In this document: one piece after another, positions 3,711 to 15,220 of the stretch | Layout: each line of letters begins with the position of its first letter | Position numbering within the stretch: position 1 is the stretch's first letter | Assembly: GCA_903906315.1 (NCBI GenBank) | Contig: CAIVJW010000338.1 | Span: 1-54,076 of the forward strand | Length of the DNA: 54,076 nt | Direction: 5' to 3' | Origin: an uncultured delta proteobacterium | Lineage (GTDB): Bacteria; Myxococcota_A; Polyangia; Polyangiales; Polyangiaceae | Notes under the pieces: generated by a model | Database searches by the model: none | What the model was told of the DNA's origin: nothing | The model's input: the letters and a program-made list of their open reading frames with translations, nothing else | Translations under genes and position numbers: made by a program

Positions 3711-3899
3711 GGCGACATCGACAGCTCACCCGAGCGGCCGGGGGGTCACGGCGGAGCCCGTTGGGCAGCCGCGTTCCACCGCGCGGCGCGTGGCGGTCGC
3801 CTCGTGCGCGGCGGCGTCGGCCTACCCGCCGCGTGCGCGTCGATGGCCGAGGCGTAGGCCGTGGCCTCGGGCGCGCGGCGGGGTGTACGTTGCGCGCCC

Positions 3900-6593
3900 A
3901 TGGGGCGAGGCGGGGCGCTGGGGGCTGCGGGAGCGGTCGGGGTGCTGTGCGGCGCGGTCGCCGCGTGCTCGGGCGCCGCCCACCCGAGGTCGCCCGCGTC
4001 GGATCCGGGCGGGCCGATCGCCTCGCCGCGATCGCCGCCGGCGGACTCGCCGTGCGAGGTCGCGGCTCGCGAGCGCGCGCGCCTGCCGGCGCTCCTCGAG
4101 CAGGGGCGCCTCGACCGCGCCGCCCGCGTCGTCGATCGCGCCGACCGGCTGTGCCCCACGAGCGCCGCGGAGAGCCGCGCCGCGCGGGTGGCAGTGCTGG
4201 CCGAGATCGGCGAGGTGGGGTCGGCCCGGCGCCTCGCGGACGCCATCGACGGCGACCCTCGGGCGACCGGCGCCGATCGCGCCGCGGCGAAGGCGGCGCG
4301 CGATCAGGTGGCGGCGTCGGAGCGGCGCCCGACGGGCCCGGAGGCCCGTGCCGCAGCTGCGCGCCTCGCGGGCTCGGCGCGCGAGGCCTTCGAGGCCGGG
4401 CGTCCCGCCGAGGCGCGACGCGGCTTCCTCGCCGCGTGGGCCGCCCACCGCCCGAACCCCTCGGCCCTCTTCGGGGCGGGGCGCGCCGCGAGCGCGATCG
4501 GCGATCGCGCGGGCGCCCAGCGCCTCTTCGATCGCACGCTGCACGAGCTCGCGCAGCCCGTCTCCGTCGCGCGCGACGTCATCCCCGGCGACGGCCCGAT
4601 CGCGCTCGCGAACGACGGCCGGACCGTCGCCGTGGCCCTCGAGGGCGGGGTCACGGTCCGCGACCTGCGGGACGGCTTTCGCGAGCTCGCGCGGCTCGAC
4701 GGGCAGCCGGGCGAGGTCGGCGCGGTCGCGTTCTCCCCGGACGGCCTGCTGATCGCGACGGGGTCGTCCGACGGGACGACGCGGCTCTGGGACGTCGGCG
4801 CGGGCATCGCGTTCACGCTCCCCGGCGCGGGCGGCGCCGTGGGGGTGGTCGTCTTCTCCGCGGACGGGCGGCGGATCGCGGTTGGCGGGGCCGACGGCCG
4901 GATCCGGATCGTCGACGTGGCGAAGCGCGCCGAGATCGCGGTGATCGGCGGCTTCACCGAGGCGATCGAGGCGCTCGCGTTCTCGCCGGACGGCGAGCGG
5001 ATCGCCTCGGCGGCCGGGGTCGGCGCGGCCGATCCGGCGATCGTGGGCGTCCACCGCGTCGGGGGCGGCGCGGCCGGCTGGGCGGCGAAGATCGACGGCC
5101 GCGTGGCGATGCTCGCGTTCACGCCCGACGGCAAGACGCTGCTCGGCGCCTGCCCCGCGTTCGTGGGCAACGGCCTCGGCCGCGTGACCTCCTGGGTCGC
5201 GGCGACCGGCGCCGGGCGGCGAGACCAGCTCGTCCCGGCCGACCCCTCGGCCGATCGCTTGCCGTGGGTGACCGCGCTCGCGCCCGATGGCTCCGCGGTC
5301 GTCTCCGGCTGCGCACCGAATGGCGTGATCGAGGTCGCCTCGATGAAGCGGACGGGCATGCTCCGCGACGCCGCCGGGGCGCCGCTCCCGGTGGGCGACG
5401 CCGTGTTCTCCCCGGACGGCAGGTCGATCGCCTGGCGCGACCACGGCGAGATCCGGATCACGGGCGTCGGCGGCGGGCAGGCGCCCGGCAGGAGCGGCTC
5501 GCTGCCCGCGCCGACGGGCGCGGTCGCGTTCTCCGGCGACGGCAAGACGCTCGCCGTGACGCTCGAGGACGGGACGATCCGCGCGGTCGGCGGCGCGGCG
5601 CGGGCCGGCGCGCGCCTGCTCGAGGGCCACCTGCGCGGCCGCCGCCCGGCCCGCGTCGCGGTGTCCACCGACGGCGCCCGCGTCGCGGCCGCGGAGGACG
5701 CCGGCACCTCGCACGGCTACGGCGTCCACGTCTGGGACCCCGCCGCGCGCGCCCCCCTCGCGCGGCTCGACGGCCTCGCGGCGATGCCCGCGGAGGTGGC
5801 CTTCGCGACCGACGACCGCTCGGTCGTGGTGGTCGAGTCCGGCGCCGTCCTCCGGTGGATCCCGGCGACCGGCGCGGTGACCCGCGGCGCCAGGACGATC
5901 CCGCCCGCCAGCACGCACGTCGCGCTCTCCCCGGACCGCGGCCGGCTCGCCTTCGACGCCACGACGAGGAGCCTGCGCGTGGTCGACCTCGACGGCGCGC
6001 CGGGGCTGCCGGAGGTGGCCGTCGCGAGGAGCTACGAATCGATCTCCGCCGTCGCGTTCTCGCCGACGGGGAAGATCCTCGCGATGGGCACGTACGACGG
6101 CACGCTTTCCCTCGTGATCCCCGGCGACCAGGCTCCGACCCGCACGGTGACCCACCCCAAGTCGGGCGTCGGCGCCCTGGCCTTCTCTCCCGACGGGCGG
6201 TCGATCGCCTCGACCTGGCGCGACGGCGCCCTGCGCGTGCACGACGTCGCGCGGGCGACCGAGATCCGTCGCGTCGACGCGCCCGGCGCGACCGGCGTCG
6301 CGGTCTCGCCCGCCGTCGTGGCCTGGTCGGCCCCCGACCGCGCCGTCCGGATCTCGCCGAACCGCGGGGACGCCGCCGTCACCCTCGGCTTCGCGGCCGC
6401 GCGCGACGCCGGCTACGCGATGACGAGCGACGCGGTCGAGCTCCTGGGATCGGAGGCCGAGGCCGCGGCGGCGCTGCTGGTCTGCCGCGCAGGCGCGCTC
6501 ACCTTCCCGCTCGAGCTGTGCCGCGAGCGCCACGAGTCGCCGGGCCTGGTCGCCCGCGTGCTCGCCGGAGAGCCCGCCGCGGCCGATCCCTGA
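3900..6593 (+). CDS. WD40-repeat beta-propeller lipoprotein
   Basis: An 897-residue predicted lipoprotein. The ATG at 3900 is chosen because it places a signal peptide right at the start, with lipobox AVAAC and Cys near residue 23. Residues of about 40-230 are Ala/Arg-rich and helical with TPR-like spacing. From about residue 270 to 800 there are repeated WD40-type blades, each with an AFSPDG-like strand and a closing WD-like strand, for example VAFSPDGLLIATGSSDGTT followed by RLWDV. At least ten such units are visible, enough for one or two propellers. WD40 propellers are protein-interaction scaffolds; no catalytic domain is seen. It probably acts at the periplasmic face of the inner membrane or at the outer membrane. 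The partner is unknown. Confidence 0.85.
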   Translation: MGRGGALGAAGAVGVLCGAVAACSGAAHPRSPASDPGGPIASPRSPPADSPCEVAARERARLPALLEQGRLDRAARVVDRADRLCPTSAAESRAARVAVLAEIGEVGSARRLADAIDGDPRATGADRAAAKAARDQVAASERRPTGPEARAAAARLAGSAREAFEAGRPAEARRGFLAAWAAHRPNPSALFGAGRAASAIGDRAGAQRLFDRTLHELAQPVSVARDVIPGDGPIALANDGRTVAVALEGGVTVRDLRDGFRELARLDGQPGEVGAVAFSPDGLLIATGSSDGTTRLWDVGAGIAFTLPGAGGAVGVVVFSADGRRIAVGGADGRIRIVDVAKRAEIAVIGGFTEAIEALAFSPDGERIASAAGVGAADPAIVGVHRVGGGAAGWAAKIDGRVAMLAFTPDGKTLLGACPAFVGNGLGRVTSWVAATGAGRRDQLVPADPSADRLPWVTALAPDGSAVVSGCAPNGVIEVASMKRTGMLRDAAGAPLPVGDAVFSPDGRSIAWRDHGEIRITGVGGGQAPGRSGSLPAPTGAVAFSGDGKTLAVTLEDGTIRAVGGAARAGARLLEGHLRGRRPARVAVSTDGARVAAAEDAGTSHGYGVHVWDPAARAPLARLDGLAAMPAEVAFATDDRSVVVVESGAVLRWIPATGAVTRGARTIPPASTHVALSPDRGRLAFDATTRSLRVVDLDGAPGLPEVAVARSYESISAVAFSPTGKILAMGTYDGTLSLVIPGDQAPTRTVTHPKSGVGALAFSPDGRSIASTWRDGALRVHDVARATEIRRVDAPGATGVAVSPAVVAWSAPDRAVRISPNRGDAAVTLGFAAARDAGYAMTSDAVELLGSEAEAAAALLVCRAGALTFPLELCRERHESPGLVARVLAGEPAAADP

Positions 6594-6740
6594 CCGGGGC
6601 GGCGGGCCCGACCTGCGGCGCGGTGGTGCTGCGCACGGACGTCGTTCGGCACGTCGTCTTCGAGGGCGACCCGGCGAACGAGGTCCGCCTCCTCGTCCAG
6701 ATCGCCGGCCTTCGCGGCTGATAGGGCGGAAGGGCGCAAG

Positions 6741-6769
6741 CAGAGGGTGGCAGAGGGTGGCAGAGGGGG
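6741..6769. repeat. short 10-bp direct repeat, about 3 copies
   Basis: The unit CAGAGGGTGG occurs twice in tandem at 6741-6760 and a third, imperfect copy follows. It lies in the 256-bp gap between the convergent WD40 lipoprotein and small exported protein genes. I see no other feature in that gap. Confidence 0.6.
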
Positions 6770-6849
6770 CGGCCGCGCCGCGGCGGTCAGGGGCGACGCT
6801 CGACCTCGCCGGAGAGCGGGCGGGCCCGTCGGGCGCGCCCGCGCAGCCG

Positions 6850-7110
6850 TCAGAGGTTCTCGACCGACTTGAGCATCTCCGCGACGAAGTGCATCCGCGG
6901 CCGCAGCAGCCGGTCGCGCCGCCCCACCTTCAGGACCGTGATCTGCGGGCCGGTCGCCCCCAGGCTCGCGCCGTGCATCACGTCGTCCTGGAAGACGTAG
7001 CCGTACTGGTCGTCCTTCTTCGTCGGCTCGGCGCCCGCCATCGGCTCGACCGCCCCGAGGCACACGATCCCCACCACGGCCGCCAGGGCCGCACGCTTGC
7101 TCGTCGTCAT
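6850..7110 (-). CDS. small exported conserved hypothetical protein
   Basis: An 86-residue protein starting at ATG 7110 (MTTSKRAALAAVVGIVCLG), which begins directly with a signal peptide; an in-frame extension upstream to 7263 lacks any export feature and is rejected. After likely cleavage near MAGAEP the mature part is about 60 residues, with YGYVFQDD, QITVLKVG, and a C-terminal RPRMHFVAEMLKSVENL helix. The small, tidy mature domain suggests a periplasmic or secreted product. I do not know its function. It lies downstream of the lamin-tail lipoprotein gene on the same strand but 337 bp away, so it probably has its own promoter. Confidence 0.7.
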   Translation of the reverse strand: MTTSKRAALAAVVGIVCLGAVEPMAGAEPTKKDDQYGYVFQDDVMHGASLGATGPQITVLKVGRRDRLLRPRMHFVAEMLKSVENL

Positions 7111-7447
7111 CTGCTGGTGCGCGTCCGCGTCCGCGGTGCCCGCGCCCTCCTCGAGGAACTCGGACACGGCGCGAGGCGCGCGCTTGGGTGGCGCGCGACC
7201 CGTGAACCTTGCCGAGGACCCCGGTGCTGCAAGGCGCGCGATCTCGGCCAGTAGACCGAGCATGCGTCCGCAGACTCGCCAGGCGGTCGACCGGATGGGT
7301 GGGGAGCGAGAGGAGCGTCACGAGCGGGCGGTACGCGCCCGTGACGAAAACGGCGGGCCACTGCCGAGACCAGCGGGGGGCGAGCTGCCGTGTCGCTTTG
7401 CCTCGGCTTTCAAGCCGGTGATCGAAAGGGGCGTGTCCGCGATCCCC
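7111..7447. other. intergenic region of 337 bp
   Basis: Lies between two minus-strand genes and should contain the promoter for the small exported protein. There is a short inverted repeat (CGGCTTGAAAGCCG on the minus strand, around 7405-7420) past the end of the lamin-tail lipoprotein, without a T-run. I see no convincing gene in any frame. Confidence 0.4.
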
Positions 7448-8134
7448 CTACGGCGCGTGGTTCGACGCGCCCGGCGTCGGCGCGCAGGCGGCGAGCTCGC
7501 CGGTGAGGTCGGGCAGCCGGCAGTAGGTCTGGCCGGCGGGCGCGCCGTCCTTCGGGTAGTGGGCCTCGCTGACGACCGCATCGTCCGCGCCGAGCAGGAA
7601 CACGCTCTCGCCCTTCGACGCGCTCACCTTCCACGACGCGTAGAAGCACGTCGGCGGGCCCCCCGTGACGCACTCGGTGCCGGGGCCGGCGCCCGCGTCG
7701 GGGCTCTTGTTGCCGACGACAATCACGTACGACTTCGGCGGGAGCATCGTGCCCGCGGGGAAGCGAACGGCGTCCGCCGTCGAGCACTTGCCGTCCGCGT
7801 CGCTGTCGCAGAGCGCGTGGTCGCCGAGGTCGACGGGCGCGTCGCCCGCGTTCGCGAGCTCGATCCAGTCCTCTCCCGCCGCCGCGATCTCGTTGATGAC
7901 GAGACCGCCGCCTGCCGCCGCTCCGCCCGCGCTCGTGCCGGTCGTGCTGCCGGTGCTCGTGCCGGTCGAGCTCGTACCGGTCGTCGTGCTCGTGCCGGTC
8001 GTCGTGCTCGTGCTGCCGCCGGCGCCCGTCGTCTTGCTGCCTTCGCCGCCGATGCCGGGCGTGCTGCCGGCCTCCGCGCAGGCCGCGAGGGTGAAGATGG
8101 CTCCAAAGAGCGAGCTGACGTGGCGACCGAGCAT
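7448..8134 (-). CDS. lamin-tail-domain (LTD) lipoprotein
   Basis: A 228-residue lipoprotein. The signal peptide MLGRHVSSLFGAIFTLAAC ends in a LAAC lipobox. A stalk of about 50 residues made almost only of Thr, Ser, Gly and Ala follows. From about residue 75 there is a lamin-tail domain, recognisable by LVINEIAAAGEDWIELAN, then PVDLGDHALCD and PPKSYVIVV strands. Four or more Cys in the domain could form disulfides. LTD modules in bacteria are known on surface or secreted proteins, often with nucleases or adhesins. A good ribosome-binding site (AAGGAGA) precedes the ATG and lies across the stop of the barrel gene 12 bp upstream, so this is the last gene of the minus-strand operon. Confidence 0.85.
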   Translation of the reverse strand: MLGRHVSSLFGAIFTLAACAEAGSTPGIGGEGSKTTGAGGSTSTTTGTSTTTGTSSTGTSTGSTTGTSAGGAAAGGGLVINEIAAAGEDWIELANAGDAPVDLGDHALCDSDADGKCSTADAVRFPAGTMLPPKSYVIVVGNKSPDAGAGPGTECVTGGPPTCFYASWKVSASKGESVFLLGADDAVVSEAHYPKDGAPAGQTYCRLPDLTGELAACAPTPGASNHAP

Positions 8135-8146
8135 GAGTGATCTCCT

Positions 8147-9322
8147 TCAGAAGCAGGCGCGTGCGATGGCGCGCAGGGTCCAGCGATCCAGGCCGGGCAG
8201 CGCGTCCTTCGCGACGGCCTCGGGGAACGTGCGGGCGACCGCGAGGAAGGCCTCGAGCGGGTCGGCGATGCGGTAGCCGGCCGCGCCGGTCAGCTCGGTG
8301 ACGCGATCGCTCGAGGTCGCGAGATCGCGCAGCCACGAGAAGCCGCGGACGCCGAAGATCAGGCGGTCGACGGGCTCGGCGCGCAGGAAGGCGTCGACGA
8401 GGAGGGATCGCCGGTCGCCGTCGGCGCCGACGCCCCACGCGTGGGTGATGGCCACCGCGCCGCGCAGGCGCGTCCCCTGCCACACGAGGGCGCCGGTGAC
8501 GCGGTCGGCGCGGGCCTTCTCGACGCCGCTCGACCCCGCGACGTACGACGCGAAGAGGCCGATCGGGCGAGCGGTTTCGAACGCGGCGAGCGGGTGCACC
8601 TCGACGGCGACCTCGAGGTTCTTGCCGCGGTTGCGCTCCGGGCCCGTGTAGCCCTCGCCGTTGGTCGCGGCGATCGCCACGAAGCCGTAGCCGTCGGGGA
8701 ACAGGGCGCGCGCGGTCGCGCCGAGGTCGGCGGGCGCGTACAGGCCGGCGCGCTCGGCGGGGCTCGCGGCGAGGGCGCGCATCGCGAACGTGCCGTCGAG
8801 CTCGGGGACGGTGAGCGTCGGGACGACGCCCGCGTCGATCGCGAGCCAGCCGCCGTGGCGGAAGCCCGCGCTCGCCTCGCGCACGCGAAACACGAGGCTG
8901 TCGCCGGCCACGCCGAGGAGCGCGCCCTCGGACGCGGACCGCACGGCCTCGAGCACGATGCGGGCGCGCGCCGGGCCGTACTCGCCGGTGATCGACCCGT
9001 GCGCGCGCGGCAGCTCGAACGTGTGGAACCACTCGGACCCGGCGGCTGTGCGCGTCACGCGGAGCTGGTACTCGGCGATGACCTCGACGCCGGGCTTCAC
9101 GACGAGGCCGGTCGTGCCCGCGGCCGTCGGCTCGGCGGGGCGGCCGAGCGGCGCGTCGGTGGCGGGCTTCGTTGCCGGCGGCGTTGCGGGGGCCGGCTTC
9201 GCTGCGGAGGTGGGCGGTGAAAGAGCGGCCGGCTCGTCGGCGTGCGAGGGCGTGGCGATCGCGAGGGCGAAGGCGCACGCGGCGAGCGACGTGGCGAGCG
9301 TGGATCGCGGCTTCCTCGTCAT
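8147..9322 (-). CDS. predicted outer-membrane beta-barrel (porin-like) protein
   Basis: A 391-residue exported protein. The signal peptide runs from the ATG at 9322 (MTRKPRSTLATSLAACAFAL) to about PSHADEP. A Pro/Ala/Thr-rich linker of about 40 residues follows. The rest consists of alternating-hydrophobicity strands ending in an aromatic C-terminal residue (RAIARACF), as expected for a Bam-dependent barrel. Strands such as RIVLEAVRSA, GLFASYVAGSSGVEKAR and LRGAVAITHAWG resemble phosphate-selective-porin-like proteins, but I cannot assign a subfamily. The start overlaps the DUF2252 stop by 4 bp (ATGA), so the two are translationally coupled. The Cys before the terminal Phe is unusual for a barrel. 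Confidence 0.65.
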   Translation of the reverse strand: MTRKPRSTLATSLAACAFALAIATPSHADEPAALSPPTSAAKPAPATPPATKPATDAPLGRPAEPTAAGTTGLVVKPGVEVIAEYQLRVTRTAAGSEWFHTFELPRAHGSITGEYGPARARIVLEAVRSASEGALLGVAGDSLVFRVREASAGFRHGGWLAIDAGVVPTLTVPELDGTFAMRALAASPAERAGLYAPADLGATARALFPDGYGFVAIAATNGEGYTGPERNRGKNLEVAVEVHPLAAFETARPIGLFASYVAGSSGVEKARADRVTGALVWQGTRLRGAVAITHAWGVGADGDRRSLLVDAFLRAEPVDRLIFGVRGFSWLRDLATSSDRVTELTGAAGYRIADPLEAFLAVARTFPEAVAKDALPGLDRWTLRAIARACF

Positions 9323-10785
9323 GGCGCGGGCGGGAGGCCAGGATCGGCGAGGAGGGCGCGGAGGTCGGGCGGCGGCGGATCGTCCGAAGGCGCGACGCCG
9401 AGTGTCGGGCCGAGATCGGCGATCGCCGCCCGAAAGCGCGCGTGGTCGTCCAGGACCTGCGCGGCGTACGCGTCGCCCACGTCGGCCTGCTCGTCGGCGA
9501 ACCCGGCCGGGTCGGCGCCGATGGCGGCTCGGATCGCGACCGCGCCCACGGCGGCGTCGCTCGCGTGCACCCGCGCGAGGAGCGCCCCGAGCACGCGCGC
9601 AAAGGCCGTGATCGCCTCGGGCGTGCCGCGCTTCTTCTCGAGGCGCGAGACGCGCGCCGTCTTCTGCGCGCCCGACTCCAGGCGCACCTGCACGGGCATC
9701 CCGAGCCACGTCGACGCCCCCCAGAGCGGCGCCGCGCGCGCCCCGCCGAACCAGGCCGTGCGGGCCGTGCCGATGACGCGCGAGGGGACGTCGTCGTAGG
9801 CGACCGCGGGGGGCGGCTCGACGGGGAGCGCCGCGTCGGCGAGCTCCTTCACCTCGATCACGACGTCGTCGATCGCGTCGTCGGACGGGCCGCGCAGCAG
9901 CACGATCGCCCGCACGCGAGGCCAGCTCGCGACGCCGGAGCCGAGCTCGCGTGCGGCGTCGAGGACGGTGAAGAACTCGGGGGGCGGAGGCGCTTCGAGG
10001 CTCGCGCGGTAGCGCGCGAGGGTCGCGGGCAGCGCGTCGATCGCGACGGTGGGCAAGTCGACGAGCGCGTTCGTGGGCTCGTCGGGCGTGATCGGGCCGC
10101 GGACGAGCGTGCGCCCCGAGGGGCCGAGGCGCGTGAGATCGGACAGCTCGGTGCGGAGGGGCCGATCGCGCACGGCGCGATCGAAGAGGTCCGAGACGAC
10201 CAGCTCCTCGCGCGGCGCGGCGATGCGCGCGTGGGGCGCGCCCGCCGCGAAGGCCTCGATCGCCTGGGCGTACGCGATCGCGGCGGCGCGGGCGACGTCG
10301 CGCGAGGCCGCGGCTGCCGCTGCGCGCGCGGCGGGATCGGCCGCGTTCGACAGGCGCGCCGCCAGGCTGACGCCCACCACGAGGCGGCGCACGTCCCAGA
10401 GGTACGGGCCGCGATCCGCGCTGTCGAAGTCGTTCGGCTCGAGGCCGAACGATCCGTCGGCGCCGAGCAGCACGCCGAAGTTCTCCGGGTGCGGGTCGCC
10501 GACGACGATCCCCGGCGCGCCGTCGCGGGCGAAGGCCGATCGCGAGAGCTCGTGGTCGGCGGCCTCCCAGTCGCGCAGGAATACGGGCAGGTTGCCGCGG
10601 TAGAACGAGACGGTGTCGCTCGCCATGAGGGCGTACTTGCCGGCGAGGAGCCCGGGGCGCGCGCGCGCGATCGCCTCGTCCGCAGCCGTGATCGCGCCGA
10701 CCACGATGGCGGTGCGATCGCCGCCGTCGGCGCCGCACGCCGCCGTGGCGGTGGCGAGGAGGAGGGGGATCGCGGCGCGCAGCAC
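9319..10785 (-). CDS. DUF2252-family protein with a lipoprotein signal
   Basis: A 488-residue DUF2252 protein. The family signature is clear: LLAGKYALMASDTVSFYRG, DWEAADHELS, then VVGDPHPENFG and EPNDFDSADRGPYLWDVRRL. DUF2252 proteins are thought to share the protein-kinase-like fold, with GDPHPENFG and DFD as the catalytic-loop and metal-site equivalents; the substrate is unknown. The GTG at 10785 is chosen because it starts a signal-like segment (VLRAAIPLLLATATAACGAD) with Cys near residue 17. The frame upstream of this GTG lacks DUF2252-like sequence. A kinase-like fold outside the cytoplasm would be odd, so the signal should be verified. It is coupled to the barrel gene by a 4-bp overlap. 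Confidence 0.8.
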   Translation of the reverse strand: MLRAAIPLLLATATAACGADGGDRTAIVVGAITAADEAIARARPGLLAGKYALMASDTVSFYRGNLPVFLRDWEAADHELSRSAFARDGAPGIVVGDPHPENFGVLLGADGSFGLEPNDFDSADRGPYLWDVRRLVVGVSLAARLSNAADPAARAAAAAASRDVARAAAIAYAQAIEAFAAGAPHARIAAPREELVVSDLFDRAVRDRPLRTELSDLTRLGPSGRTLVRGPITPDEPTNALVDLPTVAIDALPATLARYRASLEAPPPPEFFTVLDAARELGSGVASWPRVRAIVLLRGPSDDAIDDVVIEVKELADAALPVEPPPAVAYDDVPSRVIGTARTAWFGGARAAPLWGASTWLGMPVQVRLESGAQKTARVSRLEKKRGTPEAITAFARVLGALLARVHASDAAVGAVAIRAAIGADPAGFADEQADVGDAYAAQVLDDHARFRAAIADLGPTLGVAPSDDPPPPDLRALLADPGLPPAP

Positions 10786-10889
10786 GGGGCCGCTCGTATC
10801 GTTCGACGCGCGCGCTCGCAACGAGGTGCGATCGTCGTAACGCGTTCGACACGAAGCGCACACGGGGCCGTCGCACGGGCGGCGCCGGA

Positions 10890-11699
10890 TCACGCCGCGG
10901 GCCGCGCCAGCGCGCGCAGCGCGGCGCCCTCGCCGCGCGCACGCAGCCGGCGGAGCGGCGCGAGGTGCTGCGAGGTCGCGGGGACGAAGCGCCGCACGCT
11001 GGTGGCGCCCGCGTCGTCGGCGGCCTGCCAGGCGAGCGACGCGAGGCCCCGCGCGAGCGCGCTCGCGAGCGCGTCGGACACGGTCGGCCGCGCCACGACG
11101 ACGTCGCTCGGGATGGGCCCGGCGGCGGCGAGCACGCGCGCCGCGCAGCCGAGGTCGGGGGGCGTGACGCGGCCGGCCGCGGGGTCGAACGTCGCGTAGG
11201 TCGCGATGACGTCGACCGTGCCGGCGGCGAGCGCGCGCGCAGCGCCGGCGTGCGACGCGAAGAAACGCTCGTCGCCGAAGCACGCGCTGAGATCGAAGCC
11301 GAGCGAGGCGAGGTGCAGGCGCGGCACGACGTAGCCGGCCGCGCTCTGCTTGGCGACCCAGCCCACGCGCGCGCGCCCGAGATCGCCGAGGCTCGTGACG
11401 CCGCCGTCGCGGCGGGTGACGAGGGCCGAGTGGTAGGCGGTGCCGAAGCCTCGATCGATCGCCGCGATCGTGCGGGCCGATCGCGCGCTCTCGAGGTCGA
11501 GGGCCACGAGCGGAGGCGCCCACGCGGCGTCGCACGCGCCCCAGTCGACGGCGTCGAACAGGCTCGCATACGTCGGCACCCGCACGAGGTGTACCTGCGC
11601 GCCGGCCATCGCGGCCAGATCGTCGACGAGCGCCGCGACTGCGCGCGATTCGGCACCGGTGGTCGGCGGGAGTGCGAAGCGGAGGGGGGCTGTCTTCAT
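10890..11699 (-). CDS. PhnD-like phosphate/phosphonate-type solute-binding protein without signal peptide
   Basis: A 269-residue type 2 periplasmic-binding-fold protein. LRFALPPTTGAE opens the first strand. The hinge and ligand region is recognisable in YASLFDAVDWGACDAAWAPP, then LGDLGRARVGWVAKQSAAGY and FFASHAGAARALAAGTVDVI. This is the arrangement seen in PhnD-type phosphonate/phosphate binders. The start at ATG 11699 leaves no signal peptide or lipobox, and I find no alternative upstream start supplying one. A cytoplasmic ligand-sensing role, or a missed export signal, are both possible. No ABC permease or ATPase gene is nearby. It lies 67 bp after the PstS-like gene and 104 bp before the DUF2252 gene. 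Confidence 0.75.
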   Translation of the reverse strand: MKTAPLRFALPPTTGAESRAVAALVDDLAAMAGAQVHLVRVPTYASLFDAVDWGACDAAWAPPLVALDLESARSARTIAAIDRGFGTAYHSALVTRRDGGVTSLGDLGRARVGWVAKQSAAGYVVPRLHLASLGFDLSACFGDERFFASHAGAARALAAGTVDVIATYATFDPAAGRVTPPDLGCAARVLAAAGPIPSDVVVARPTVSDALASALARGLASLAWQAADDAGATSVRRFVPATSQHLAPLRRLRARGEGAALRALARPAA

Positions 11700-11766
11700 G
11701 GCGCTGCATGGTGCACGCGCTCGGTGTCGCCTGCGCGACGGCGCGATGCCGGTGGCGCGGCGCGCG

Positions 11767-12639
11767 TCAGCGCCCGTGCGCGCGCACCGCGAGCTGCGCG
11801 TGCGCGAAGGCGCGCGCCTCGTCGGAGACCGCGACGAGATCGGTGGGCGCGTCGATGAGGCGCGTCAGCACGGCGAGGACCGCGGGCCGCGTGGCGGTCG
11901 GCGCCGTGGCGTGCGCGTACGCGAGGCGCGCGAGGGCGCGGTACTCGTGCCGCTGCAGCGTGCGCGGCGACGGCGCGATCGGCGTCGCGCCCTGCGCGTC
12001 CTCGACGACCGGCACGGCGCGGAGCGTGGCGGGCAGCGCGGCGCACGCGTCGTAGCGGAGGATGGCGATCAAGGCCTCCGAGGGTCGCGGCGCCAGCCCC
12101 GCGGCGCTCGCGACCCGCGTCACGTCGTCGCGCACGCCCCCCGCGAGCGGCGCCGTGTCCTCGACCGCGAGGCGGCCCTCGACGCGCGCCTCTGCCGCGA
12201 GCGTGATCGGCGTGTCGGGCCAACCGGCGCGCAGATCCGACGCGCGCGTCCGCTCGCCCGAGGCGGACCGCCCGAACGCCCGCGCGATCTCGGACGTGGT
12301 GATCGCGTCCATCCATGGCGCGTCCTCGGCGACCACGACCAGCGCCTCGTAGCCGATCGGTACCTCGAACGCGGGCCGCCCCGCCACGGCGCACGCGGAC
12401 CGCTCGGCGTGGCTCATCGGCCGCGGCCCGGTGACGACGTCGAACGCGCCCCCGCACAGGCGCCCGATCGCCTCGTCGTGCGACGCGCGAGAGACGCGCA
12501 CGTTCTGCGAAGCGCCCGCGTCGATCGAGGTCGCTGCCGTCGCCACGCGGACGGTCGCTCCTTCGGACGCGGTGGGGCCGGCGGCGAGCGCGACCGCGCC
12601 GGCGAAGAGGACGCGGTGGGTCTTCGTGATGGCCGTCAT
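11767..12639 (-). CDS. PstS-like substrate-binding domain protein, exported
   Basis: A 290-residue periplasmic-binding-fold protein. The N-terminus MTAITKTHRVLFAGAVALAA is a signal peptide with likely cleavage before ATVRVA. The mature sequence has the PBP_like_2/PstS pattern: a strand with VRVATAATS, then FDVVTGPRPMSHAE (where PstS has the serine-rich anion loop), FEVPIGYEALVVVAE, and DAITTSEIARAFG. The phosphate-binding serines are not fully conserved, so the ligand is uncertain. A strong ribosome-binding site (GGAGGAGG) precedes the ATG. It is the second gene of the minus-strand operon, 64 bp after the metallophosphoesterase. Confidence 0.75.
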   Translation of the reverse strand: MTAITKTHRVLFAGAVALAAGPTASEGATVRVATAATSIDAGASQNVRVSRASHDEAIGRLCGGAFDVVTGPRPMSHAERSACAVAGRPAFEVPIGYEALVVVAEDAPWMDAITTSEIARAFGRSASGERTRASDLRAGWPDTPITLAAEARVEGRLAVEDTAPLAGGVRDDVTRVASAAGLAPRPSEALIAILRYDACAALPATLRAVPVVEDAQGATPIAPSPRTLQRHEYRALARLAYAHATAPTATRPAVLAVLTRLIDAPTDLVAVSDEARAFAHAQLAVRAHGR

Positions 12640-12703
12640 ATTCGTGCCTCCTCCGTGCAGGGTGCCGCGGCCCCGTCACGCCTCGATGACATCCCCGCGG
12701 CGC

Positions 12704-14149
12704 TCACGCGGCCGCACGCGGCGTTCGCAGTCCGCGCGCGCCGATCCGCGCGGCGACCGGCTCGACGCGACCGTCGACGAAGCGGTAGAGCCCGCCCGCC
12801 AGCTCGCCCTCGTCGCGCAGCCACACGAACGGTGAGCCGTGGCGGAGCGGCTCGGTGCAGGCGACGTCGGCGAACGTGGGGGCCCACGTGCCGGAGTTGC
12901 CGAAGAACACTCCGGCCTCGTCCCAGGCGCCTTCGGGTACGTGCGTGTGGCCGAAGACGACGGCGCGCGCGTCATGCAGCCGCGCAATCTCGCGCTGCGT
13001 GCGCTCGATGCGGTCGTACCCGGCGTCGAGCTCGTGGGCACCGGAGGAGACCCGCAGCGCGATCGCGCCCGCGGTGGTGGCGATCGCGATCAGGACGCCG
13101 ACCGCGACCGCCTTCGCGCCGACCGCGATCGCGATCGCGAGCAGCAGGCCGACCGCGAGCCCGAGCCGGTCGAGCGCGAGCAGCCGCGCGACGCGGCCGA
13201 GGCTCGGGCGGTCGAAGAGGGCGCGGTGCGCCTCGATGGTGGCCACGTCGCACCCCGTCTCGGCGGCGGCGGCGGCCACGTCGCGCGCGACGCGCGCCGG
13301 GTCGTCGGCTTCGCGACGCACCGCGAGGCCGAACGCGATGCGCAGCGATCCGGCGAGCCACGTGAGGACGAGCGACCGGCGCGTGAAGGCGTAGTAGCGG
13401 ACCCAGTGCTGGAAGTAGCCGCGCGCGGTGAGCAGAAACGTCGAGTCGACGTTCGGGTTGAAGAAGCCGAGCTTCGCTACCAGCTCGCGCATGGCGAGCG
13501 ATCCCATCGTCGGCGGCAGCCCGCCGCTCGCCGGCAGCGCCGGGGTCATGGGGTACGCGACGGCGCAGTACGTGTCGTACTGACTGCCGTGCTCGACGTG
13601 CACGCCCGCGTCGGTGCGGTGGAACCAGGCGCGAAAGACGACGCCCCGCGCGATCCGGGCGACGTCGACCGGCCCTGCGGCGAGGCGCGCGGCGGCGGCG
13701 ACGAGGCGCTCGCGCACGAGCGCGCGCACGCCCTCGAACACGAGCGGCAGGTCGTGGTTGCCGGCCAGCAGGACGACGCGGTCGCCGCGCAGGATCAGCC
13801 GCGCGAGGGCGGTCCAGACCTCGGCGTGATCGTCGAGGATCCCGCCGACGACGCGAAGCGTGCCCGCCTCGTCCGCGGGGGCGACCTCGCGCGCGACCTC
13901 GCCGCCCTGCACGGCCGGGACGTCGAAGTCGAGCACGTCGCCGGCGAGCACGAGCTCGAGGTCGCCGGGCGCGATCGATCGCTCGAGCGTGGCCGTGAGC
14001 GCGGTGAGCTCGCGATCGGGGAAGAGGTCGCGCTGTCGGTAGCGCATCCACGATCCGCACGGCGGTGCGGCCTGCCACAGGTGCAAATCGGAGACGATGA
14101 CGGTGTGACGCGCGCGCCCCGTGCGCGGCTGGGTCTTCTCTTGGTTCAT
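12704..14149 (-). CDS. calcineurin-like metallophosphoesterase with an internal transmembrane pair
   Basis: A 481-residue metallophosphoesterase. Metal-binding motifs are SDLHLW (residues 20-25), GDVLDF (70-75), GNHD (130-133) and FGHTH (about 399-403), the normal order for the superfamily. Between GNHD and GHTH there are about 265 residues. They include a Tyr/Trp-rich segment (YFQHWVRYYAFTRRS) and two predicted transmembrane helices at about 325-365 (LAVGLLLAIAIAVGAKAVAV and VLIAIATTAGAIAL). The enzyme is therefore probably anchored to the inner membrane with its catalytic halves on the same side. The substrate is unknown; UDP-diacylglucosamine pyrophosphatase (LpxH)-like and phosphoprotein roles are both conceivable. 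It is the first gene of the proposed six-gene operon. Confidence 0.85.
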   Translation of the reverse strand: MNQEKTQPRTGRARHTVIVSDLHLWQAAPPCGSWMRYRQRDLFPDRELTALTATLERSIAPGDLELVLAGDVLDFDVPAVQGGEVAREVAPADEAGTLRVVGGILDDHAEVWTALARLILRGDRVVLLAGNHDLPLVFEGVRALVRERLVAAAARLAAGPVDVARIARGVVFRAWFHRTDAGVHVEHGSQYDTYCAVAYPMTPALPASGGLPPTMGSLAMRELVAKLGFFNPNVDSTFLLTARGYFQHWVRYYAFTRRSLVLTWLAGSLRIAFGLAVRREADDPARVARDVAAAAAETGCDVATIEAHRALFDRPSLGRVARLLALDRLGLAVGLLLAIAIAVGAKAVAVGVLIAIATTAGAIALRVSSGAHELDAGYDRIERTQREIARLHDARAVVFGHTHVPEGAWDEAGVFFGNSGTWAPTFADVACTEPLRHGSPFVWLRDEGELAGGLYRFVDGRVEPVAARIGARGLRTPRAAA

Positions 14150-14650: not shown

Positions 14651-15220
14651 ATGTCCACCGCCCGTCGGCTCCACTTCTCGTACGACGAGTACCTCGCGGT
14701 CGAGGAGCGGAGCGAGGTGAAGCACGAGTATTGCGACGGTGAGATCTACGCCATGGCCGGCGGAACGCCCGAGCACGGCGCGCTCGCGTTGCGCGTGGTC
14801 CAGGTGCTGGGCCCGAAGCTTGCGGGCTGTACCCCCCTATCGTCCGACGTCCGCGTGCATATCCAGGCGTCCGGGCTCACGACGTACCCTGACGTCAGCT
14901 TCGTGTGCGGGCCGCTCGAGCGAGCCGCCGCCGACGGCAACGCCATCACCAATCCCTCGGTGATCGTCGAGGTGACGAGCCGTTCCACCGAGGATTACGA
15001 CCGCGGCGAAAAGCTCTCGCACTACAAGCAGCTCCCTTCCCTGCGCTCTGCGCTGCTGGTCTCCCATCGCGAGCGGCGCATCACCCTCGTCGAGCGTGCA
15101 GCGACCGGCTGGTCGGTGACGGAGCATCGCCCTGGCGAGACGGTGACTCTGACCGCGCCTGGGGGCACCGCGAAGCTCGAGGTCGACCGCGTGTACGACG
15201 TGCTCGCGCAGCTCAGCTGA
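14651..15220 (+). CDS. Uma2-family (DUF820) endonuclease-fold protein
   Basis: A 189-residue Uma2/DUF820 protein with the PD-(D/E)XK nuclease fold. Family motifs are present in order: SYDEYLAVEER, then VKHEYCDGEIYAMAGGTPEH, YPDVSFVCG and NPSVIVEVTSRSTEDYDRG, followed by KLSHYKQLPSL. Asp of YPDVSF and Glu of IVEVTS match the catalytic acidic pair, and the downstream Lys is present. Uma2 genes occur in many copies in cyanobacteria and myxobacteria, often alone and next to repeats. Their role is unproven; restriction-like or mobile-element-linked functions have been suggested. Codon use is slightly less extreme than in neighbours, in keeping with an accessory gene. Confidence 0.9.
   Translation: MSTARRLHFSYDEYLAVEERSEVKHEYCDGEIYAMAGGTPEHGALALRVVQVLGPKLAGCTPLSSDVRVHIQASGLTTYPDVSFVCGPLERAAADGNAITNPSVIVEVTSRSTEDYDRGEKLSHYKQLPSLRSALLVSHRERRITLVERAATGWSVTEHRPGETVTLTAPGGTAKLEVDRVYDVLAQLS

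Follow-up and report, generated by a model that had tools for sequence, protein, structure and literature searches.

CotH-type kinases are secreted and act with a kinase fold outside the cytoplasm, and kinase-fold enzymes in this location are, to our knowledge, rare in bacteria. The Pst and Phn ABC uptake systems and the phosphate/polyphosphate porins OprP and OprO are further described systems with which parts of the locus studied here can be compared. DUF2252 is a member of the Pfam protein-kinase clan with flipped N- and C-lobes (PMC9758233). Bacterial lamin tail domains (LTDs) occur fused to calcineurin-like phosphoesterases and nucleases, and membrane-targeting or DNA-binding roles have been suggested for them (PMC6085458, PMC11488536). 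The literature we searched contained incidental mentions of DUF2252 only and no published function.

In the window, i.e. the whole stretch of 54,076 nucleotides analysed, a first-pass annotation had described a six-gene operon. All six open reading frames were located on the minus strand as claimed there, with gaps of 12 to 104 bp and one 4-bp overlap (in transcription order 64, 67, 104, -4 and 12 bp, the overlap being ATGA). The family names given earlier are backed by Pfam for five of the proteins, the barrel being without a Pfam match (Table 1). By inspection, the PstS-like, DUF2252, barrel and LTD proteins carry export signals. The PhnD-like protein and the metallophosphoesterase lack an N-terminal signal, which alters the earlier picture of a set located wholly in the envelope. 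The reported absence of an ABC permease or ATPase was borne out: of the 71 matches that the PstB model gave across the genome, none lies on the window contig, and there is no permease nearby.

Table 1. Genes and motifs of the six-gene region in the window, and genes found beside the cassette at other loci
Feature or locus	Position	Strand	Remark
Metallophosphoesterase, calcineurin-like, internal membrane hairpin; variable partner	12704..14149	-	Pfam Metallophos 28.7 bits (cut-off 21.5)
PstS-like (PBP_like_2) exported binding protein; variable partner	11767..12639	-	Pfam 36.4 bits (cut-off 27)
PhnD-like protein without signal peptide; adjacency to cassette not conserved	10890..11699	-	Pfam Phosphonate-bd 117 bits (cut-off 27)
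DUF2252 (PF10009) lipoprotein, cassette gene 1, GTG start at 10785	9319..10785	-	Pfam 134.3 bits (cut-off 22.3)
Lipobox TAAC, Cys17	10735..10746	-	C17 nearly invariant in A3
Catalytic-loop-like motif GDPHPEN, residues 96-102	10480..10500	-	G96, D97, H99, E101, N102 invariant, 24 sequences
DFG-like motif NDFD, residues 118-121	10423..10434	-	D119, D121 invariant; N118 nearly so
Putative N-lobe lysine K313, then E314	9847..9849	-	Nearly invariant in A3; C-terminal of catalytic loop
16-stranded outer-membrane porin, cassette gene 2	8147..9322	-	AlphaFold model, Foldseek, VIA-align
LTD (PF00932) lipoprotein, cassette gene 3	7448..8134	-	Pfam 47.2 bits (cut-off 34.3)
L069			Porin_O_P-like porin, purple acid phosphatase and PhoD downstream of cassette
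L070			Porin_O_P-like porin and purple acid phosphatase downstream of cassette
L067, L117, L119			Alkaline-phosphatase-superfamily enzyme beside cassette
L120			Calcineurin-type phosphoesterase adjacent
L141			Adjacent calcineurin-type phosphoesterase and PF00245 alkaline phosphatase
L106 (Minicystis rosea)			PBP_like_2 protein directly upstream, purple acid phosphatase further up
L139, L155			PhoD and orthologue of window metallophosphoesterase
L150			PhoD and metallophosphoesterase

Genes 4-6 (7448-10785, minus strand) are a conserved three-gene cassette of Polyangia, which are soil-type myxobacteria. The LTD gene is located downstream of the barrel gene at all 39 distinct loci compared, and the DUF2252 gene upstream of it at every one of these loci where the contig extends far enough. 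Furthermore, the cassette genes frequently overlap or almost touch, as is typical of operons. Neither the PhnD-like nor the PstS-like gene of the window adjoins the cassette at any of the 38 other loci, and the core unit therefore comprises three genes, not six. Only DUF2252, barrel and LTD are fixed partners. Thereby, the gene order proposed in the first-pass annotation is kept in relatives for genes 4-6 and not for genes 1-3, and of the expected co-occurrence of DUF2252, PhnD-like and LTD genes the pairing of DUF2252 with LTD stands, a PhnD-like gene being found in no other genome's cassette locus.

A search of 84,980 species with the barrel profile A1, which used one peptide pattern and was not exhaustive, yielded 30 relatives, all from Myxococcota or delta-proteobacterial MAGs, among them Minicystis rosea, Polyangium species, Labilithrix and Sandaracinaceae; with the barrel protein P0005 alone as query, a scan gave no relative. 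Of 98 genomes of the family examined for the barrel, 30 contain a match. For the DUF2252 protein the search covered 59 relatives, and the order beyond the family was sampled through relatives. Minicystis rosea DSM 24000 and Polyangium fumosum DSM 14668 are cultured carriers. In the literature searched we found no earlier description of the cassette itself.

The three upstream genes have a looser connection to this cassette. It is possible, though clearly short of an even chance, that they are unrelated genes on the same strand and that the proposed operon of six does not form a functional unit. This would fit the 38 other loci, where the window's two binding-protein genes are missing beside the cassette, the many PhnD-like proteins per genome in this order, and the position of the widest gap (104 bp) between the PhnD-like and the DUF2252 gene. 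It is opposed by the metallophosphoesterase, whose orthologues (45-46% identity) occur in the vicinity of the cassette at two other loci (L139 and L155), in divergent orientation to PhoD; a paralogue is encoded on contig G000:C214. The adjacency of PhnD-like and DUF2252 genes is also repeated on contig G000:C89, which belongs to the same bin and is 90% identical, and nowhere else outside the window. Finally, PstS-like solute-binding proteins (SBPs) of another subfamily are encoded upstream at two other loci, and the theme is shared: L106 has a different PBP_like_2-type protein, and a relative of it, found by similarity and itself without Pfam match, is present in L137. The L106 protein was rejected as an orthologue of the window's PstS-like protein because BLASTP detected no similarity between the two, and the link between these binding proteins is therefore one of fold family only.

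Since the metallophosphoesterase lacks an N-terminal signal and has its hydrophobic hairpin within the chain (about residues 328-368), the active site is probably on the cytoplasmic side. The PhnD-like protein opens straight into its binding domain; no in-frame start codon precedes it and there is no signal peptide, and the protein is thus probably cytoplasmic. Against the PstS model TIGR02136 the PstS-like protein reached 32.7 bits, below the NCBIfam cut-off of 206.6, and against the PhnD model TIGR03431 the PhnD-like protein reached 60.5 bits, below the cut-off of 261.1. One PstB above the cut-off is encoded on another contig (G000:C436).

Names were assigned to the genes around the cassette from Pfam matches and sequence similarity. 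Phosphoesterases (PhoD, purple acid phosphatase, alkaline phosphatase, calcineurin-type) were detected within about 6 kb at 12 of the 39 loci (Table 1) and were absent from this distance at 27, among them some truncated contigs and five near-identical Polyangium loci. Metallophos genes were found within 6 kb at 8 loci compared to 1.1 expected (Poisson P 2e-5) and PhoD genes at 4 loci compared to 0.09 expected (P 3e-6), a test that is partly post hoc as the families were chosen after the first loci, and in which L139 and L155 are sister loci. The background density was derived from 18 carrier genomes (about 174 Mb; 516 Metallophos matches and no more than 45 PhoD match rows, 43 of them used, split genes being counted twice), and the flank tested amounted to 374 kb. 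In 11 held-back loci, fetched after the hypothesis had been formed, PhoD occurred at 3 loci (0.03 expected) and Metallophos at 3 (0.31 expected); this count is conservative because the similarity screen missed L141. At two of the three held-back loci with PhoD, the orthologue of the window's metallophosphoesterase is present too. When mapped onto the porin tree, the presence of a phosphoesterase requires 8 changes, at least 5 of them forced by well-supported branches, and the association therefore does not go back to one inherited neighbourhood. The Porin_O_P matches of the neighbouring porins in L069 and L070 are weak and below cut-off.

Because phosphoesterase genes are strongly over-represented beside the cassette in other genera, including the held-back loci, the link to phosphorus was recovered independently of the window. 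The earlier suggestion of a link to phosphorus was a good one, and an undescribed envelope system, here seen to be conserved, is supported; the unit of six genes was too large.

The barrel predicted in the first-pass annotation is confirmed by structure prediction. The AlphaFold model (pLDDT 83) has 16 strands and resembles solved porins of the OmpF/OprP type (Foldseek E about 1e-11; VIA-align Z 24-25 to Omp35, Omp32, OprP and OprO); for 5o78, VIA-align gave Z 25.0, with 295 residues superposed at an rmsd of 2.9. The barrel proteins have signal-peptide-like N-termini. OprP, OprO and Omp32 match at the same Z as general trimeric porins, not higher, and Pfam gave no match to P0005 at E 1, including Porin_O_P (PF07396), so that a specific assignment as phosphate porin is unsupported by Pfam. 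For the third cassette protein, the LTD profile hits lamin tail domains of solved structure (lamin A/C at E 8e-6), and the LTD proteins share a conserved lipobox ...AC[AS][ED].

The DUF2252 protein matches the Pfam profile over positions 3-392 of 392. In the alignment A3 of 24 orthologues the lipobox cysteine is present in 18 of the 20 members having a start codon, and the exported members conserve a kinase-type signature of GDxHxEN, NDxD and a lysine. The catalytic-loop and DFG-like motifs precede the putative N-lobe lysine, which fits the order expected of the lobe swap. Since the exported members retain this signature, the protein is predicted to be an active kinase-fold protein in an odd location outside the cytoplasm. 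The AlphaFold model is of high quality (pLDDT 89.4, pTM 0.90). Foldseek found no solved relative for it, and VIA-align yielded Z values of at most 3 overall, with four kinases among the weak matches (Z 2.1-2.4). Sequential aligners perform poorly on permutations, and we read these weak matches as the effect of aligning a permuted chain sequentially rather than as a new fold. When the halves of the DUF2252 profile were swapped, only kinase-fold entries were matched (TP53RK, hygromycin kinase), although weakly (E 0.3-1); in a Pfam search with half-swapped DUF2252 sequences, DUF2252 was the sole significant match. The distant members L123 and L124 combine a twin-arginine-like SRR motif with a lipobox, which would mean export after folding.

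Taken together, we favour, at about an even chance, the interpretation that the cassette is an outer-membrane or surface module handling phosphoesters or other phosphorus-containing ligands with the help of local phosphatases. At the surface, the LTD lipoprotein may retain either a hydrolase or a phosphorylated ester or polymer (DNA or phospho-polysaccharide), and locally encoded PhoD, purple acid phosphatase and alkaline phosphatase could free phosphate or small esters. The porin would pass the anions, and the membrane DUF2252 protein would bind or trans-phosphorylate the phospho-ligand. In the window, the PstS-like protein might be a periplasmic receiver or sensor, the metallophosphoesterase and the signal-less PhnD-like protein might act on the cytoplasmic side, and uptake could proceed via a Pst transporter with its ATPase encoded on a different contig. 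Several observations fit this module less well: scavenging has no obvious need for a kinase-fold enzyme, 27 of the 39 loci have no phosphoesterase within about 6 kb, and the three upstream genes of the window are not conserved partners.

In the main rival reading, the DUF2252 lipoprotein would be an active kinase-fold phosphotransferase whose target is a glycan, lipid or protein of the envelope (the porin and the LTD protein being possible targets), with the neighbouring phosphatases reversing the reaction. We consider such an extracytoplasmic phosphorylation rather unlikely. The strict constraint on all kinase-like motifs in the exported proteins speaks for it, as does the SRR motif of L123 and L124; in this reading DUF2252 may be exported carrying nucleotide. 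Further support comes from the variant cassette L073, in which a second exported protein with the ATP-grasp-type phosphotransferase domain PPDK_N is encoded directly upstream. However, ATP is not expected outside the cytoplasm, we know of no periplasmic ATP pool, no substrate is visible, and phosphoesterases that are varied and often absent suit scavenging better than a dedicated eraser. Our preference for surface handling of phosphoesters over phosphorylation is a moderate one, and the evidence does not separate the two. It is doubtful, in our opinion, that the cassette represents a new class of extracytoplasmic kinase system, in which an outer-membrane-anchored, circularly permuted kinase-fold enzyme would phosphorylate, or transfer phosphate from, envelope or environmental ligands delivered by its own porin, with the LTD for docking and local phosphatases acting in the opposite direction. 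An envelope-assembly or surface-adhesion module without phosphorus link, with DUF2252 as pseudo-enzyme or structural ligand binder, would agree with the lack of a confident solved relative in the fold search, the many loci without phosphoesterases and the description of LTD as a membrane- or surface-targeting domain, but is quite improbable given catalytic residues that are invariant, not eroded, and a phosphoesterase enrichment well above background.

For the widespread DUF2252 family, the fixed gene context, export signal, intact catalytic residues and phosphatase-rich neighbourhood provide a first concrete, testable idea about its exported branch. If active, the protein would be a kinase-fold enzyme working outside the cytoplasm. 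In this it would be like the CotH-type kinases, which belong to a different family, are not permuted and gave no sequence match. With the Pst and Phn uptake systems the window shares the folds of the PstS-like and PhnD-like binding proteins; it differs by having no permease or ATPase nearby, by scores below the NCBIfam cut-offs and by a PhnD-like protein without signal peptide. The barrel has the same 16-stranded fold as OprP and OprO (VIA-align Z 24.4 and 24.2) and, like them, many invariant arginines, whereas general porins score equally and it lacks the Porin_O_P match. The LTD fusion proteins ExeM and ShfP likewise bring an LTD together with phospho-hydrolases at the cell surface. Unlike in these proteins, the LTD of the cassette stands alone as a small lipoprotein, and the phosphoesterases have neighbouring genes of their own. 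The window protein shares with the Pfam DUF2252 family (PMC9758233) the motifs GDxHxxN and NDFD preceding the N-lobe lysine. What differs is that the cassette member is an exported lipoprotein in fixed association with a porin and an LTD protein; the other DUF2252 protein of the same genome (contig G000:C365) starts without a signal peptide.

Apart from the window with its cassette of DUF2252 lipoprotein, 16-strand porin and LTD lipoprotein, the bin includes a 9.1-kb contig (G000:C89) carrying a PhnD-like gene 90% identical to that of the window. Along with it, DUF2252 is present as its initial ~100 codons only; the frame is broken immediately 3' of 'GDP' in the catalytic motif GDPHPEN and then continues into the region of a PAS-GGDEF-EAL gene. 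This break is either an assembly chimera of strain variants or a genuine rearrangement.

The first gene of the variant cassette at locus L073 encodes an exported lipoprotein with a PPDK_N domain (pyruvate phosphate dikinase ATP-binding), which is a second extracytoplasmic phosphotransfer fold. At L107, L109, L110 and L111, all in Polyangium-type genomes, a same-strand gene closely upstream of the cassette encodes a Ser/Thr kinase of about 1270 aa with AAA and TPR regions. The extra LTD proteins of L074 and L122 (565-598 aa) showed no Pfam match beyond LTD.

The DUF2252 N-termini at L123 and L124 (genomes G028 and G021) contain a twin-arginine-like SRR motif and a lipobox, suggesting from sequence that these proteins may be exported by the Tat pathway already folded.

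Neighbouring features and variant loci
Feature	Location	Strand	Remarks
Uma2 family gene (PF05685)	window 14651-15220	+	99 bits; divergent to metallophosphoesterase
910-aa predicted lipoprotein, numerous WD40 repeats	window 3861-6593	+	convergent to cassette end
PhnD-like gene copy with DUF2252 fragment	G000:C89 (L063), region 7950-9107
Additional large LTD protein	L074 6404-8101; L122 6523-8319		immediately upstream of DUF2252, two genomes
Variant cassette	L073 (G041:C87) 5747-11153		order: PPDK_N lipoprotein, DUF2252, DUF2490 protein, 213-aa exported protein, LTD lipoprotein

Polyangiales genomes possess many PhnD-like genes, as many as 8 per genome, several of them inside very long open frames. 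Phosphonate-binding-protein folds may have expanded in this order for a non-transport purpose.
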